Shown here in pieces: positions 1 through 18,878 of a DNA stretch of 25,408 bases. Source of the DNA: a virus; IMG/VR virus record IMGVR_UViG_3300048921_000167, positions 1 to 25,408 of that record. One strand, given 5' to 3'. The notes beneath the pieces were generated by a model. It searched no databases, was not told the origin of the DNA, and worked only from the letters and a program-made list of their open reading frames with translations. Within the stretch, counting starts at the first letter, position 1; every line of letters starts with the position of its first letter. A program made the position numbers and the translations under genes.

Positions 1-256
1 CGATCGTGTGAACCTCGCAGTCCAGAAACACGTGCTGCGCCCACGCCATGCCCTTGCGGTCGTTCAGGATCGTGTGCATGAACGACTGCTTGCGTGACTC
101 CGGCCAGTTAGCCATCGCCTCGAGCAGCTCGTCGAACGTCACCGATTCGATCTCGGCTTGAAGGTGTTCAGAATCGCGCAGGTCAGCCATGTCGATTGCC
201 TCTTGCATCACTTCGTAATTGCGCTCTGCGAGCGTGGTGGTTTGGGTCGGGGTCAT
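1..256 (-). CDS. Hypothetical early phage protein (partial, runs off left edge)
   Basis: Leftward reading frame starting with ATG at 256 and open to base 1, so at least 85 residues with the C-terminus missing. It begins MTPTQTTTLAERNYEVMQEA and is acidic and probably helical. I do not recognise the family. It starts 1 nt after the stop of the upstream gene (TGA A ATG), so it belongs to the leftward operon transcribed from PL at about 874-902 and is probably translationally coupled. In lambda-like phages this position holds early accessory, recombination or host-interaction genes. No domain here points to one of these. Confidence 0.7.
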   Translation of the reverse strand, partial: MTPTQTTTLAERNYEVMQEAIDMADLRDSEHLQAEIESVTFDELLEAMANWPESRKQSFMHTILNDRKGMAWAQHVFLDCEVHTI

Positions 257-257
257 T

Positions 258-473
258 TCAGGCATCCCTGGCACGAAGCATGGCGTCGGCTACTTCATAG
301 GCGCGCATCCCAATTTCTTCTATTCCACATCCCCATGTATCGGCATGCGTGCATATCCCCTGCATTGCCTTAGCTGCTAAGTAATCGCGCAGCGACATTC
401 CCAAGTTGATAAAAGGGGTCTCGTTTAAGTCGCCACACCACGGGAATGCGTGAATGGGTCTATCGTCTTTCAT
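258..473 (-). CDS. Small hypothetical phage protein with GMSLRDYLAAKAMQG motif
   Basis: 71 residues, leftward, third gene of the PL operon. I chose ATG at 473 (MKDDRPIHAFPW) rather than the upstream in-frame ATG because it lies 1 nt after the stop of the preceding gene (TGA C ATG). The central GMSLRDYLAAKAMQG and the C-terminal ending AYEVADAMLRARDA form a pattern I know from many small phage and prophage proteins of unknown function. That pattern is family recognition from memory, not a search. It has no signal peptide, membrane segment or catalytic motif. It is probably a cytoplasmic early protein; function unknown. Confidence 0.7.
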   Translation of the reverse strand: MKDDRPIHAFPWCGDLNETPFINLGMSLRDYLAAKAMQGICTHADTWGCGIEEIGMRAYEVADAMLRARDA

Positions 474-474
474 G

Positions 475-612
475 TCAGCACCACACGACGTTGGAGTAGT
501 CCACCGTCCGCACATAGCCGCCATCGTTGTATTCCATGTAGGCGTGCGAAAGGATGATCAGGACCGTGTGAACCGGGCCGCGGCTGCGTAGGAAGTCGCT
601 GCAGAAGCTCAT
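475..612 (-). CDS. Very small hypothetical early protein
   Basis: 45 residues, leftward. Upstream in-frame starts exist up to 672, but I chose ATG at 612 because it overlaps the stop of the preceding gene in an ATGA arrangement, which this phage uses repeatedly. The sequence begins MSFCSDFLRSRG and ends DYSNVVWC, with a short hydrophobic stretch (HTVLIILSHAY) that is too short to be a clear membrane helix. I do not recognise the family. The coupled position between two better-supported genes is the main argument that it is real. Confidence 0.5.
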   Translation of the reverse strand: MSFCSDFLRSRGPVHTVLIILSHAYMEYNDGGYVRTVDYSNVVWC

Positions 613-827
613 GACAGGGCTCCGGCTGCTTCGCTTTGGTCGATACAGCCATCGTTGATCCAGCCCCAGCATTCGTGCGCGTCGAGCGTCGCGATCACTT
701 CGCCATCGAGCGAAATGTCTTTGCTGTACAGGCGGCGGGAAGACGCTACGGTGAAGCCAAGTTCTGCCAGGGTCTGGTTGAGCGTTAGTCCCTTGGCGAG
801 GGCCGACTTGATCAATTCAGGAGCCAT
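609..827 (-). CDS. Hypothetical early protein, first gene of the PL operon
   Basis: 72 residues, leftward, starting with ATG at 827 (MAPELIKSALAKGLTLNQTL). A GAGAGG ribosome-binding site lies about 8 nt before the ATG. It is the first gene after PL, with an untranslated leader of roughly 40 nt. The N-terminal half (SALAKGLTLNQTLAELGF) could form two helices and may be DNA-binding, but no clear helix-turn-helix is visible. The C-terminal half is acidic. First genes of PL operons are made early and under repressor control. I do not recognise the family. Confidence 0.65.
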   Translation of the reverse strand: MAPELIKSALAKGLTLNQTLAELGFTVASSRRLYSKDISLDGEVIATLDAHECWGWINDGCIDQSEAAGALS

Positions 828-873
828 TTCGTTTGCCTCTCGTGGGGTGTCGCTTGCTGCGACTGTTGAAGCA

Positions 874-902
874 ATATTAGGATGCTATTGAACAGACGTC
901 AA
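874..902 (-). promoter_or_regulatory. Leftward early promoter PL
   Basis: Read leftward, -35 TTGACG (902-897), a 17-bp spacer and -10 TAATAT (879-874). Both boxes match the sigma70 consensus in 5 or more of 6 positions. Two operator palindromes sit on it, one over the -10 and spacer and one touching the -35, in the same geometry as at PR. Confidence 0.8.
876..889. promoter_or_regulatory. Operator OL1 (over the PL -10 box)
   Basis: ATTAGGATGCTATT, an imperfect palindrome AWWAG-N4-CTWWT. The same 14 bp recur exactly at 1578-1591 at PR. The sequence shows the repeat and its overlap with PL; repressor or Cro binding is inferred. Confidence 0.75.
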
Positions 903-914
903 TAGGAAACTTAT
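901..914. promoter_or_regulatory. Operator OL2 (at the PL -35 box)
   Basis: AATAGGAAACTTAT, matching AWWAG-N4-CTWWT in both half-sites. It starts 25 bp from OL1 and overlaps the PL -35 box by 2 bp, as the upstream operator does at PR. Confidence 0.7.
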
Positions 915-993
915 AAAAAGGCGTAAGATTGTTCGGGCCACCACAAAAAGCGGTGCGCTCCCCGAATGGGCGGGATCAACCGAGGGCCAAAAT

Positions 994-1209
994 ATGGAAG
1001 ACGAGGAATGCTCCTGCCGGCAGAAATACGAGGCTGCCGTCAGGATGTTTGAGAAGGAGGTGACTCAGTGGGCGCGGGCGAGTGCCGCGCTCGAAAAGGA
1101 GGGGGCTAGAGGGTTTGTGCCTGGTCCTATTTTCCCAATGCCGCCAGTTTTTCAGCGAGCGTGCTGGCAGCCGTGTCGAGGAGACGCAGCGTTACTTGCG
1201 ACCCATTAG
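994..1209 (+). CDS. Possible small hypothetical protein facing the repressor gene
   Basis: 71 residues, rightward, ATG at 994 with a CGAGGG stretch about 9 nt upstream. The first 40 residues are charged and helical (CSCRQKYEAAVRMFEKEV, then ASAALEKEG) and look like a real protein. The last 28 residues are antisense to the 3' end of the repressor gene (from 1127) and look like shadow sequence. A possible rightward promoter lies upstream (TTGAAC 888-893, TATAAA 912-917), inside the PL operators. It may be a short accessory gene, a truncated remnant or a chance ORF. I do not recognise it. Confidence 0.35.
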   Translation: MEDEECSCRQKYEAAVRMFEKEVTQWARASAALEKEGARGFVPGPIFPMPPVFQRACWQPCRGDAALLATH

Positions 1210-1528
1210 AGTCGCGGAAAACAACCAGCACTATGCCTTCCCGATCCGGGTCGGCAATCGCTGCGATGGTGTCTTCAATCATGGGAGGGTAGTGCAGGGA
1301 CATAGGTGCATTGATCTCGCGCCTCTTCTTCTGCCCCTTCCCGTTTTCAAGCCAGTCAGACTCCACTTCCAGGGCGCGGGCTATGGCGTTAAGGAACGCT
1401 GAGCCCTTGTTGATGCCCTTTTCCATTTGGGAAATCAGCCCCTGAGTCACGCCGGCCCGGCGGGCCAGTTCCTCCTGGGACCACTTTTTGTCTTTCCGCT
1501 CGTTGCGGATCCGTTCGCCGAAGTTCAT
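1127..1528 (-). CDS. XRE-family phage repressor (CI-like)
   Basis: 133 residues, leftward. I chose ATG at 1528 (MNFGERIRNERKDKKWSQEE) because the longer version would run back through the PR operators. Residues about 1-65 are a typical XRE helix-turn-helix with the WSQEELARRAGVTQGLISQMEKG core and the family ending ALEVESDWLENG. The remaining roughly 65 residues are a short domain lacking the Ala-Gly cleavage site and Ser/Lys dyad of LexA/CI-type S24 peptidases. It lies between PL and PR and opposite cro, the place of cI in lambdoid phages. It should bind the AWWAG-N4-CTWWT operators and hold lysogeny. The missing peptidase domain makes RecA-driven self-cleavage unlikely. Its own promoter (PRM) is probably within 1545-1585 but is weak to the eye. 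Confidence 0.85.
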   Translation of the reverse strand: MNFGERIRNERKDKKWSQEELARRAGVTQGLISQMEKGINKGSAFLNAIARALEVESDWLENGKGQKKRREINAPMSLHYPPMIEDTIAAIADPDREGIVLVVFRDSNGSQVTLRLLDTAASTLAEKLAALGK

Positions 1529-1553
1529 GGCTTCGAGTTTATTAGGAAGCTCT

Positions 1554-1567
1554 ATAAGATTGCTATT
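1554..1567. promoter_or_regulatory. Operator OR2 (at the PR -35 box)
   Basis: ATAAGATTGCTATT fits AWWAG-N4-CTWWT in both half-sites. It overlaps the PR -35 by 2 bp and ends 26 bp before the repressor start codon, so a bound repressor could block PR and also touch the repressor's own promoter. Confidence 0.7.
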
Positions 1568-1593
1568 GACATTGATCATTAGGATGCTATTAT
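1566..1593 (+). promoter_or_regulatory. Rightward early promoter PR
   Basis: Perfect -35 TTGACA (1566-1571), 16-bp spacer and -10 TATTAT (1588-1593), directly upstream of the cro-like gene. Operators cover the -10/spacer and the edge of the -35. It should drive the whole rightward early operon. Confidence 0.85.
1578..1591. promoter_or_regulatory. Operator OR1 (over the PR spacer and -10)
   Basis: ATTAGGATGCTATT, identical to OL1 at 876-889. It starts 24 bp from OR2. A weaker overlapping palindrome, ATTATTTGGCTAAT at 1589-1602, could be a third site. Confidence 0.75.
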
Positions 1594-1618
1594 TTGGCTA
1601 ATTATTAGGAGGAAAGAC

Positions 1619-1831
1619 GTGGACTGGAAAAAACTCATCTCCGAGCTGCTCGAGAGCGGCATGACCCAAACGTCCATCGGCGAGCACATCGGCGTGACCC
1701 AAGGTGCCATCTCTCAGGTCCTGAGCGAGCGAGCGGGATCCCGTCGTGGCTTCAAGTGGGAGACCGGTCAAAAGCTCATTGCCCTTCACAAAACGCGTAC
1801 TTCATCGGCCAAAGAGCCGGCCGACGCGTAA
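1619..1831 (+). CDS. cro: Cro-like helix-turn-helix regulator
   Basis: 70 residues, starting with GTG at 1619 behind a strong AGGAGGA (1607-1613). The sequence contains a compact helix-turn-helix: LLESGMTQTSIGEHIGVTQG followed by the recognition helix AISQVLSERAG at about residues 15-40. Small size, first place after PR and divergence from the repressor gene are the hallmarks of Cro. It should bind the same operators as the repressor, shutting repressor synthesis and later damping early transcription. The C-terminal tail (TSSAKEPADA) is probably disordered. The role is inferred from position and fold; the operator preference cannot be read from sequence. Confidence 0.85.
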   Translation: MDWKKLISELLESGMTQTSIGEHIGVTQGAISQVLSERAGSRRGFKWETGQKLIALHKTRTSSAKEPADA

Positions 1832-1858
1832 CAACCAAAAACAACTACGGGGTTCACC

Positions 1859-2161
1859 GTGAACACAGTTTCAGCGGCATCGAATGAACGCGCACGCAAG
1901 TTCGCGTCCCTCGTGTTGCAGCGGCTTACAGCCGTCGGACAGAACAAAGTTGCTGACGAGATCGGGGTTTCAGCAGCGACCGTGTCGCGCTGGACGAGCG
2001 AGGACTTGGAACGCGCCTGCTTGATCTTGGCCACCGTAGGGCTGAAGGTCGTTCCTCTCGATATGCAGTGCTTCCCACCTCGCAAGGTCGCAATCCTGAT
2101 GGAGCTTGCGCGGGATCACTTGAACCAGATGGAAAACGTCGAGCAATTGACGTGGGAGTAA
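1859..2161 (+). CDS. cII: CII-like transcriptional activator
   Basis: 100 residues from GTG at 1859, 27 bp after cro. It resembles lambda CII in length, position and plan: an N-terminal helix with RARKFASLVLQRLTAVGQ, then a helix-turn-helix NKVADEIGVSAATVSRWTSE (about residues 28-47) matching the CII pattern of T-x-A-x-x-V-G-V-x-x-x-x-I-S-R-W. A further helical segment follows, where CII forms its tetramer. In lambda CII activates the promoters for repressor establishment and integrase. I looked for the CII site TTGC-N6-TTGC in the expected leftward orientation near its start and did not find one, so its targets are unknown here. Confidence 0.75.
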   Translation: MNTVSAASNERARKFASLVLQRLTAVGQNKVADEIGVSAATVSRWTSEDLERACLILATVGLKVVPLDMQCFPPRKVAILMELARDHLNQMENVEQLTWE

Positions 2162-2167
2162 GCGGCT

Positions 2168-2971
2168 ATGGCCGGTGACTGGATCAAAATGCGAACAGAC
2201 CTTTCCGAAGACCCCGCAGTTATCGCTGTGGCTGCGCGATTGAACATCGACGAATTTAGTGTCGTCGGACGCTTGCATCGAATTTGGAGCTGGGCCGACA
2301 GCCAGTTGCGCGATGGGTATGCATACGGCATCACCCTCAAGTGGATCGATCGATACGTCCATCTCGATGGCTTCTCGAATGCCCTTCTCGATGTCGGCTG
2401 GCTCGGGAAAATAGAGAACGAAACCCTTCCCGAATCGGGAAACATTGGCCTTCTCGAAGGGAACGCTAATCTTCTCGATCGAGAAGAAATCGAGAAAGGT
2501 TTCGAGAAAATCGAGAAGGGCGTGTTCTTCCCGAATTTCGACAGACACAACGGTGAAACAGCGAAAACGCGTGCCGTAAAGACAAAAAACAAGCAGAACT
2601 CACGGGCAACCAACGGCCAATTCGCACTTCTCGAAGGTGATCTTCTCGATGGAGACAAAACGGGGACTAGAGAAGAGAAGAGAAGAGAAGAGAAGTACAA
2701 CCCCCAGGTGGCTTTCTCGATTTTCTGGAAATCCTATCCACGGAAGGATTCGAAGGTCCCTGCCGAGAAGGCTTTTGCCAAAGTCGCAACTTCGTTTGAA
2801 GTGTTCGACGCGATCATGGCCGGCGTCGAACGCGCGAAACAGTATGACCAGTGGCGCAAAGACCACGGCCAGTTCATCCCCTACGCATCGTCCTGGCTGA
2901 ATCAACGTCGCTGGGAAGATGACATTGACGAGCCCACCACGCACGACAATCCCTTTGCGGAGGCCCTATGA
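2168..2971 (+). CDS. O-like phage replication initiator containing the probable origin
   Basis: 267 residues, ATG at 2168. Residues about 1-85 (GDWIKMRTDLSEDPAVIAVA, HRIWSWADSQ, GFSNALLDVGWL) form the winged-helix type DNA-binding domain seen in phage replisome organisers. Residues about 95-180 are low-complexity, charged and encoded by the repeated CTTCTCGAWG iterons and an AGAAG tandem repeat. The C-terminal domain (FSIFWKSYPRKDSKVPAEKA and QFIPYASSWLNQRRWEDD) is the DnaT/O-type domain that contacts the helicase or its loader. The gene lies just upstream of a DnaB-type helicase, in the place of lambda O. As in lambda, the origin appears to lie inside the gene. The family is clear; the iteron-binding role is inferred. 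Confidence 0.82.
   Translation: MAGDWIKMRTDLSEDPAVIAVAARLNIDEFSVVGRLHRIWSWADSQLRDGYAYGITLKWIDRYVHLDGFSNALLDVGWLGKIENETLPESGNIGLLEGNANLLDREEIEKGFEKIEKGVFFPNFDRHNGETAKTRAVKTKNKQNSRATNGQFALLEGDLLDGDKTGTREEKRREEKYNPQVAFSIFWKSYPRKDSKVPAEKAFAKVATSFEVFDAIMAGVERAKQYDQWRKDHGQFIPYASSWLNQRRWEDDIDEPTTHDNPFAEAL
2361..2721. repeat. Iteron array, probable replication origin inside the O-like gene
   Basis: A 10-bp unit, CTTCTCGAWG, recurs in both orientations. Near-exact forward copies start at 2371, 2384, 2450, 2471, 2627, 2642 and 2712. Inverted copies lie at 2479-2486, 2489-2498, 2501-2510 and 2510-2518. One-mismatch variants (CTTCCCGAAT) lie at 2426 and 2527. A perfect 16-bp palindrome, CTTCTCGATCGAGAAG, is at 2471-2486. 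A purine-rich, AT-richer stretch at about 2565-2600 and the AGAAG repeat follow. This recalls lambda ori, where iterons in gene O sit beside an easily melted purine-rich tract. Confidence 0.7.
2671..2695 (+). repeat. Pentanucleotide tandem repeat (AGAAG)5
   Basis: Five perfect direct copies of AGAAG in frame within the O-like gene, encoding part of the charged linker TREEKRREEKY. The unit is not a multiple of three, so gain or loss of one copy would shift the frame ahead of the C-terminal domain. It also gives a strictly purine strand next to the iterons. Confidence 0.9.
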
Positions 2972-3489
2972 GCCGTCTCCCGCGCAATGGCGAAAACCTG
3001 CTGAACATGCGCCGAGAAGGCAACAAGCCCGAAGGCGTGACGCTCGTGTCGTTCGTTGGAAGCCTGCCGCACTCGAATTTCACGGTCTATGCAGAACCTG
3101 GTGATGCATGCGACTGGACCCCGCTGGCAGGACTCGAGATCGAGGTGCTGGTCAACGCATCAATGCCCATGCCGACGGTCTTGCGACAGTTGTCCGCAAT
3201 TGCCAGTGCCGCACCTGAGCACATGGTCCTGACATACGTCGAAGGCCCACGCATCGACTGCGGACAGGCGCGGTATTCGTTGCAGGCCTTCAACCCGAAT
3301 ACCGGCCGCATGCTCTTCGACTGGTTCCCGATGGCGATTGGTCCGTCTCACCTTGCCGACGCTTCGAAGATCGAGAAGCGCCTCTGGCGCGCGCTCGACA
3401 ACGAAATCCCGATCCCTTTCGATGCGTCTGAAAAGCGCCTCGTCAACCGCATGAACAAGGAGCTTGGCCGTGGCGCAAGTAATCGCTGA
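2968..3489 (+). CDS. Hypothetical early phage protein
   Basis: 173 residues, ATG at 2968 in an ATGA overlap with the O-like gene, so it is co-translated with it. It lies between initiator and helicase, where lambda carries the helicase loader P, but I see no AAA or loader motif. The sequence is mixed alpha/beta with a conserved-looking middle (HMVLTYVEGPRIDCGQARYS) and a basic C-terminus (KRLVNRMNKELGRGASNR). It has no signal peptide or membrane helix. I do not recognise the family; a role in replication is only suggested by position. Confidence 0.7.
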   Translation: MSRLPRNGENLLNMRREGNKPEGVTLVSFVGSLPHSNFTVYAEPGDACDWTPLAGLEIEVLVNASMPMPTVLRQLSAIASAAPEHMVLTYVEGPRIDCGQARYSLQAFNPNTGRMLFDWFPMAIGPSHLADASKIEKRLWRALDNEIPIPFDASEKRLVNRMNKELGRGASNR

Positions 3490-17765: not shown

Positions 17766-18182
17766 ATGAAACAACTCGTGCAAATCGCGCCGGCTGACTT
17801 AGCGGCGGTCTGGTCACGTGTGCGCCCCGGACTCGAGTCGATGGATAAAGCCGATGGCTGGATCCCTGAAGACGTCTATTGCTCGCTCAAGTTGGGCCAC
17901 GCGACGCTGTACCTGGTGACGATCGATGAGGTCGAGCACGGCTTTCTGGTGCTGCGCGCGCTTCAGGACTATGACGGCGCGCGGCTGCATATCTGGGTGC
18001 TGCACTCGACGACCGGCGTCGACGTGATGGCAGCGTTTAGCGACGAACTGGATGAAATGGGGCGCCGCATTGGCGCAAAGAAACTTACGTTCGGAACGAC
18101 ACGGCGTGGGTGGGCTAAAACGGCTCCGAAGTACGGATTTAGTCAGCTCGAAGTGATCTGGCAGAGGAGCATCGGTGGATAA
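17766..18182 (+). CDS. GNAT-like phage structural-region protein
   Basis: 138 residues from ATG at 17766, one base after the upstream stop. The order of elements (LYLVTIDEVEHGFLVLRALQ, then LHIWVLHSTTGVDVMAAFSD, ELDEMGRRIGAKKLTFGTTR and RGWAKTAPKYGFSQLEV) follows the GNAT acetyltransferase fold, with the final GF-x-x-x-E-V strand. The acetyl-CoA P-loop motif R/Q-x-x-G-x-G/A is not clearly present, so it may be inactive. Such genes are frequent in podovirus structural regions with unknown role. Its last 44 bp overlap the 3' end of the opposite-strand HNH-type gene. Confidence 0.65.
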   Translation: MKQLVQIAPADLAAVWSRVRPGLESMDKADGWIPEDVYCSLKLGHATLYLVTIDEVEHGFLVLRALQDYDGARLHIWVLHSTTGVDVMAAFSDELDEMGRRIGAKKLTFGTTRRGWAKTAPKYGFSQLEVIWQRSIGG

Positions 18183-18807
18183 GATCCGCGTCGGACAACA
18201 GTTCCACTTTCTTCCATCGATGAACAGTGGAGTAGGGCACCCCGGTTTTATCCGCCAATTCCTTCAAGGTAATCCGCGCGCCGTTCATCTCCACCCATAT
18301 AGCGCACTTTCTATTTCTTACTTGCTCAATGGGTTTGGCCCAGACGCAATTGGATGGCTCGTAGCCGCCAGCGTTGTCGCGTCGTTCGATCGTCAAATCC
18401 GGTGCAGGGCGTGCGCCCATGTCGTCCATAAAAGCCGAGAAGCTATTGAGCCAAGCTTCGCAAACCGTAATGCCTTTTGCCCCATATCGAGCGAAAGCAT
18501 GGTTCTTTGGGTTGGTGCATCGCTGCTTCATTTCAGCCCAAACGCGGTACTCCGGAGTGCCACTCAGGCCGTGTTTGAGCATGCCCCGATGGTTCAGCTT
18601 CGACTGTTTTTCGCGGGCCGTTTCTTTCCGCAGACATCCACACGACGCAATGTCTCCGGACCTAAGAGAGGCCAATTTGGCTCCCTTTTTTATGCCGCAG
18701 TCGCACCTGCAAAGGACGAATCTGGCCTTTTGCGCGCGGTAGACGCGCGGAGCCAGTTCTTCGACGACGGTCATACGCCCGAATCGCAAACCCGCAAGAG
18801 ATTCCAT
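18139..18807 (-). CDS. HNH-type homing-endonuclease-like protein with C-terminal HTH
   Basis: 222 residues on the strand opposite to all surrounding late genes. I chose ATG at 18807 because GAGAG lies 7 nt upstream; ATG at 18846 has no ribosome-binding site. An N-terminal region has a Cys cluster C33-x-C35-x-C37 and C56-x-C58 that can bind zinc. The centre (MKQRCTNPKNHAFARYGAKG, then MGARPAPDLTIERRDNAGGY and EPSNCVWAKPIEQVRNRK) is the pattern of phage HNH-related proteins with an R-x-D-N-x-G-x-Y-x-P-x-N-C-x-W core. A C-terminal helix-turn-helix (ITLKELADKTGVPYSTVHRW) would give DNA specificity. Orientation, AT-richer sequence and insertion between late genes suggest an acquired free-standing mobile gene. 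Confidence 0.75.
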   Translation of the reverse strand: MESLAGLRFGRMTVVEELAPRVYRAQKARFVLCRCDCGIKKGAKLASLRSGDIASCGCLRKETAREKQSKLNHRGMLKHGLSGTPEYRVWAEMKQRCTNPKNHAFARYGAKGITVCEAWLNSFSAFMDDMGARPAPDLTIERRDNAGGYEPSNCVWAKPIEQVRNRKCAIWVEMNGARITLKELADKTGVPYSTVHRWKKVELLSDADLIHRCSSARSLRAD

Positions 18808-18878
18808 GTCGCTGCTCTCAGTTGTCTTGTGAGATCGATGGTACATCAAATTGAATCTGGTATTAGGAGAAAAGCATC

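Follow-up and report, generated by a model that had tools for sequence, protein, structure and literature searches.

Paired 14-bp operators and a probable third OR element in a predicted phage CI/Cro immunity region

The four sites that flank cI in the window (the whole 25,408-bp stretch of viral DNA analysed here) are very probably CI/Cro operators, and the region, judged from its sequence, serves a temperate phage as its immunity region. This assignment follows from the restriction of the motif to OL and OR, the retention of the sites in relatives and the recognition-helix core that CI and Cro have in common. OR is probably not a two-site operator, and the position of OR2 relative to cI points away from the lambda mode of repressor control. 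The features are collected in Table 1.

Table 1. Features of the predicted immunity region and its surroundings
Feature	Position	Strand	Remarks
PL promoter, TTGACG-17-TAATAT	874..902	-	Promoter scan
OL1 operator, ATTAGGATGCTATT	876..889		Over PL spacer/-10; same position in four relatives
OL2 operator, AATAGGAAACTTAT	901..914		2-bp overlap with PL -35; same position in four relatives
Conserved 71-codon ORF, OL-cI interval	994..1209	+	Convergent with cI; 83-bp overlap of cI 3' end
CI-type repressor, 133 aa, HTH_3	1127..1528	-	Pfam: HTH only
Candidate PRM -10, TAATAA	1539..1544	-	Predicted; TAATAA/TAATAT at same distance from cI in five close relatives
Putative OR3, imperfect operator, ATTAGGAAGCTCTA	1541..1554		Abuts OR2; over likely PRM -10
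OR2 operator, ATAAGATTGCTATT	1554..1567		2-bp overlap with PR -35; spaced 24 bp from OR1 in each relative
PR promoter, TTGACA-16-TATTAT	1566..1593	+	Promoter scan
OR1 operator, ATTAGGATGCTATT	1578..1591		Over PR spacer/-10; identical in sequence to OL1
Cro-like regulator, 70 aa	1619..1831	+	Recognition-helix core TQGAISQ; phrog_6831
Candidate CII box, TTGT-N6-TTGT	1831..1844	-	Direct repeat in cro-cII gap; tentative
CII-like regulator	1859..2161	+	phrog_725 and Pfam Phage_CII above cut-off

Operator sites and their conservation

A motif scan recovered all four copies of AWWAG-N4-CTWWT where the initial annotation had placed them, and its measurements were reproduced: all eight half-sites fit AWWAG/CTWWT, OL1 and OR1 are identical across 14 bp, and the site starts are 25 bp apart at OL and 24 bp apart at OR. 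The promoter scan agrees with its description of the promoters, giving an overlap of exactly 2 bp between the outer operators and the -35 hexamers of PL and PR and placing the inner operators over the spacer and -10. As in lambda, cI and cro are divergent, and the operators on PL and PR flank cI. Beyond these four sites, no exact match occurs in the 25,408-bp record; 100 dinucleotide shuffles of the record gave a mean of 0.03 exact matches (largest 1), and a reversed control pattern gave 0. Matches to the exact 14-mer shared by OL1 and OR1 number 82 in viral contigs, a count that alone is not informative. One further site with one mismatch (1589-1602) overlaps OR1, is not conserved in relatives and was dropped.

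Since the motif was derived post hoc from sites in A/T-rich promoter DNA, chance A/T-rich palindromes on such promoters had to be considered, and the real test lies in relatives identified solely by protein similarity. Three IMG/VR phages (L005, L092 and L093) and a prophage region of B. cenocepacia (L099) were found with the CI protein, not with the motif; their CI proteins have 133 aa and are 60-64% identical to that of the window. Each carries all four sites, with the OR pair 24 bp and the OL pair 25 bp apart. Thirteen of the 16 sites are exact and the other three (OR2 of L005, L092 and L093) have one mismatch, against 0.2-0.5 sites per locus expected by chance when up to one mismatch is allowed. 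In all four, the distance from OR2 to the cI start is unchanged and the promoter hexamers of PL and PR keep their register with the operators. Exact matches number six in the whole 3.2-Mb B. cenocepacia record, and four of these are the OL/OR sites. Chance palindromes are already refuted by these comparative data, together with the shuffles and the reversed control, and we give them practically no weight. Random scatter of the motif, which the initial annotation had named as fatal to its reading, is clearly absent from the genome-wide scans of the record and its relatives.

A composite pattern (-35 plus inner site) was found in 43 IMG/VR contigs, in many of which OL and OR pairs lie on either side of a repressor gene. 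As the pattern itself fixes the 24/25 spacing, these loci were not taken as independent proof of spacing, and their use was confined to the third element, to gene content and to the genome-wide restriction of the motif. No exact match lies outside OL and OR anywhere in eight such IMG/VR records (possibly fragments) or in Pseudomonas phage phi297. The repressors of the ATTAG group fall into two size ranges, 133-156 aa and 220-240 aa, and almost all have the recognition helix [TS]QG[LT]I[SG]Q; Peptidase_S24 is present in three of the longer ones tested, and most of the loci also have a Cro like the window's.

The same motif occurs in other arrangements. Five low-GC phages (L107, L121, L124, L134 and L141) have three sites at a regular spacing of 24 and 23 bp, and in L107 and L124 the array adjoins a repressor gene of 224 aa. 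On the Pseudomonas cerasi plasmid p58T5 (L165 2098-2483), ATAAG-type sites, most with one mismatch and spaced 23/24 bp and 25 bp apart, adjoin the gene of a LexA-family repressor.

Repressor, Cro and neighbouring genes

The gene order is of the lambda type: cI, cro, cII-like, O-like and helicase. The candidate CII box, which in a lambda-type region would belong to a CII-dependent PRE, is kept as tentative because no good -10 follows it. Elsewhere in the window, a 236-aa ORF (18139-18849, minus strand) lies within the late genes on the opposite strand and has, by eye only, the look of an HNH-type insertion.

A Pfam search of the 133-aa CI found no S24/LexA-like self-cleavage domain. Among solved structures, the DNA-binding domain is best matched by the 434 repressor; the AlphaFold model of the protein (mean pLDDT 57), weak outside the HTH, was not of the quality that a fold search requires. 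Translation from an upstream ATG in the same frame (1579) would add 17 residues to CI in the five close relatives. Synonymous and nonsynonymous rates in this extension are not separable and the frame breaks in the wider relatives L106, L109 and L118, so the 133-aa start was kept.

At the contact positions, the recognition helices of CI (VTQGLISQ) and Cro (VTQGAISQ) carry the same residues, and their common core TQGxISQ argues that both proteins would read the same sites. The two could instead bind different subsets, as in phiKO2, where the repressor CB, likewise without self-cleavage residues, occupies three sites at OR and two at OL and Cro binds only OR3 (PMC4997575). Set against the common core, such a division of sites seems unlikely here, and we keep to the reading that CI and Cro share their operators.

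The length of the 71-codon ORF, exactly 71 aa, does not vary among the five close relatives, and its leaders are purine-rich and SD-like. The pS value exceeds pN in 10 of 10 pairs, by a narrow margin in two of the window's pairs, and neither Pfam nor PHROG gave a match to the ORF. A promoter-like sequence, TTGAAC-17-TTATAA, was read by eye at 888-916; its -35 is not conserved. As this sequence overlaps OL2, CI may control the ORF, which could be a small gene governed by OL or an antisense arm of the switch.

A third element at OR

The initial annotation described a complete switch with two sites at each end. The CI/Cro operators at PL and PR stand; two sites only at OR are not supported, since a conserved OR3-like element (1541-1554) abuts OR2. 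It takes the form ATTAG-N4-CTC, with two mismatches to the motif in the window and up to three in relatives. Of 17 nonredundant ORs, 14 have an element with at most three mismatches at offset -13 from OR2; none occurs at any OL. All 14 retain CT in the half distal to cI and read ATTAG (once ATAAG) at the cI end. In L118, L119 and L120, the element is only one mismatch away from the motif. L111, L129 and L130 have no element at this offset; in L130, a one-mismatch site lies 23 bp from OR2 instead. Lambda has three OR operators at steps of ~23-24 bp, whereas the third element here is imperfect and 13 bp from OR2.

The element covers TAATAA/TAATAT, the best PRM -10, and its left half overlaps this presumed hexamer, so its conservation could be conservation of the promoter. 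OR would then hold two operators only, and 1541-1554 would be the PRM -10 region with leader sequence, a reading that the mismatches, the poor right half (CTCTA) and the hexamer inside the element all allow. The CT retained in the other half at the right distance, the one-mismatch elements of L118, L119 and L120 and the clear three-site OR of phi297 count against it. We therefore hold the two-operator reading to be the less probable, though a serious one, and somewhat favour the assignment of the element as OR3.

Position of PRM and control of cI

No recognisable -35 was found for the candidate PRM. In each of the relatives examined, 25-27 bp separate OR2 from the cI start. The centre of OR2 would thus precede the likely start of PRM by ~29 bp, compared with ~42 in lambda-type activation; both the cI start codon and the PRM start are predicted positions. 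CI bound near -29 should block PRM instead of activating it. Positive autoregulation, with CI at OR2 stimulating PRM, has the precedent of lambda, 434 and P22 and would suit a PRM without a -35, as is often the case for activator-dependent promoters; given ~29 instead of ~42 bp, and a cI start that keeps to 25-27 bp from OR2, we consider it improbable. Unlike in lambda, cI is more likely autorepressed through OR2 than autoactivated, a view that we put at about an even chance. The lambda-like complete switch of the initial annotation thus becomes doubtful, as the OR2-cI distance would leave no position for lambda-type activation of PRM and CI has no S24 domain.

Proposed mechanism

We propose that dimers of the 133-aa CI would fill OL1 and OR1 before OL2 and OR2. 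Bound CI would cover the -10/spacer and the -35 edge of PL and PR, turning the lytic genes off, and Cro, with the same recognition-helix core, would be expected to read the same sites. OR3 is predicted to be weaker and to cover the likely PRM -10, and its occupation by Cro or by excess CI would shut off cI. The order OR1 > OR2 > OR3 is suggested by the quality of the matches, and CI at OR2, near -29 of PRM, would more likely exert negative than positive autoregulation. As CI lacks an S24 domain, RecA-stimulated self-cleavage should not inactivate it, and induction would take another route, for example an antirepressor.

These elements may amount to a widespread design, in which OR3 and OR2 are mutually exclusive because they abut (13 bp between centres), cI is autorepressed and, in the window's branch, the OL-linked 71-aa gene runs antisense into the cI 3' end; we put this forward tentatively and with considerable doubt. 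The pairing of the helix family TQG/SQG-x-I-S/G-Q with the half-site ATTAG across many phages would constitute a testable operator code, and with such a code immunity groups would be predictable from sequence. If the repressor-side geometry is true, the region would be a natural switch without the positive feedback of lambda and would bear on the need for such feedback in stable lysogeny.

Comparison with known systems

The initial annotation knew of no described phage with this recognition sequence. Phage phi297 (NC_016762), however, has five fitting OL/OR sites, all ATAAG-N4-CTTAT, spaced 25 bp apart at OL and 23 and 24 bp at OR, with no others in 49 kb; they carry no operator annotation in the record. 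Unlike the window, phi297 has a clear three-site OR of regular spacing and a repressor with an S24 domain. Among named phages, a DNA search with positions 1-3000 and a tblastn search with Cro gave no match. A literature search found no paper describing these operators, most subscription papers lying outside its reach.

The N15/phiKO2 immB region resembles the window in having three OR and two OL sites and a repressor without self-cleavage residues (PMC4997575). Its operators, however, are 16 bp long and of other sequence, and all three OR sites are full operators. Pseudomonas phage D3 (NC_002484) shares the 14-bp dyads with a 4-bp centre, the 24-bp steps and the cI/cro/cII order, and its record annotates the dyads as putative operators; it differs in an ATGRG-like half-site, three regular OR sites and a longer CI. 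The operators of 434 are 14 bp long. In the 434 contact scheme, which we used to compare the helices, Gln28 contacts A1 and Gln29 contacts position 2. The HTH of the window CI is nearest to the 434 repressor and has Gln in place of Gln28 but Gly in place of Gln29; the half-sites of 434 are of the ACAA type and its CI is annotated as LexA-like.

With the same set of sites at the same spacings in many phages, the switch is real but of a familiar kind, with a less usual arrangement on the repressor side. The half-site common to the group and the probable OR3 abutting OR2 mark it as a variant of the known CI/Cro system.
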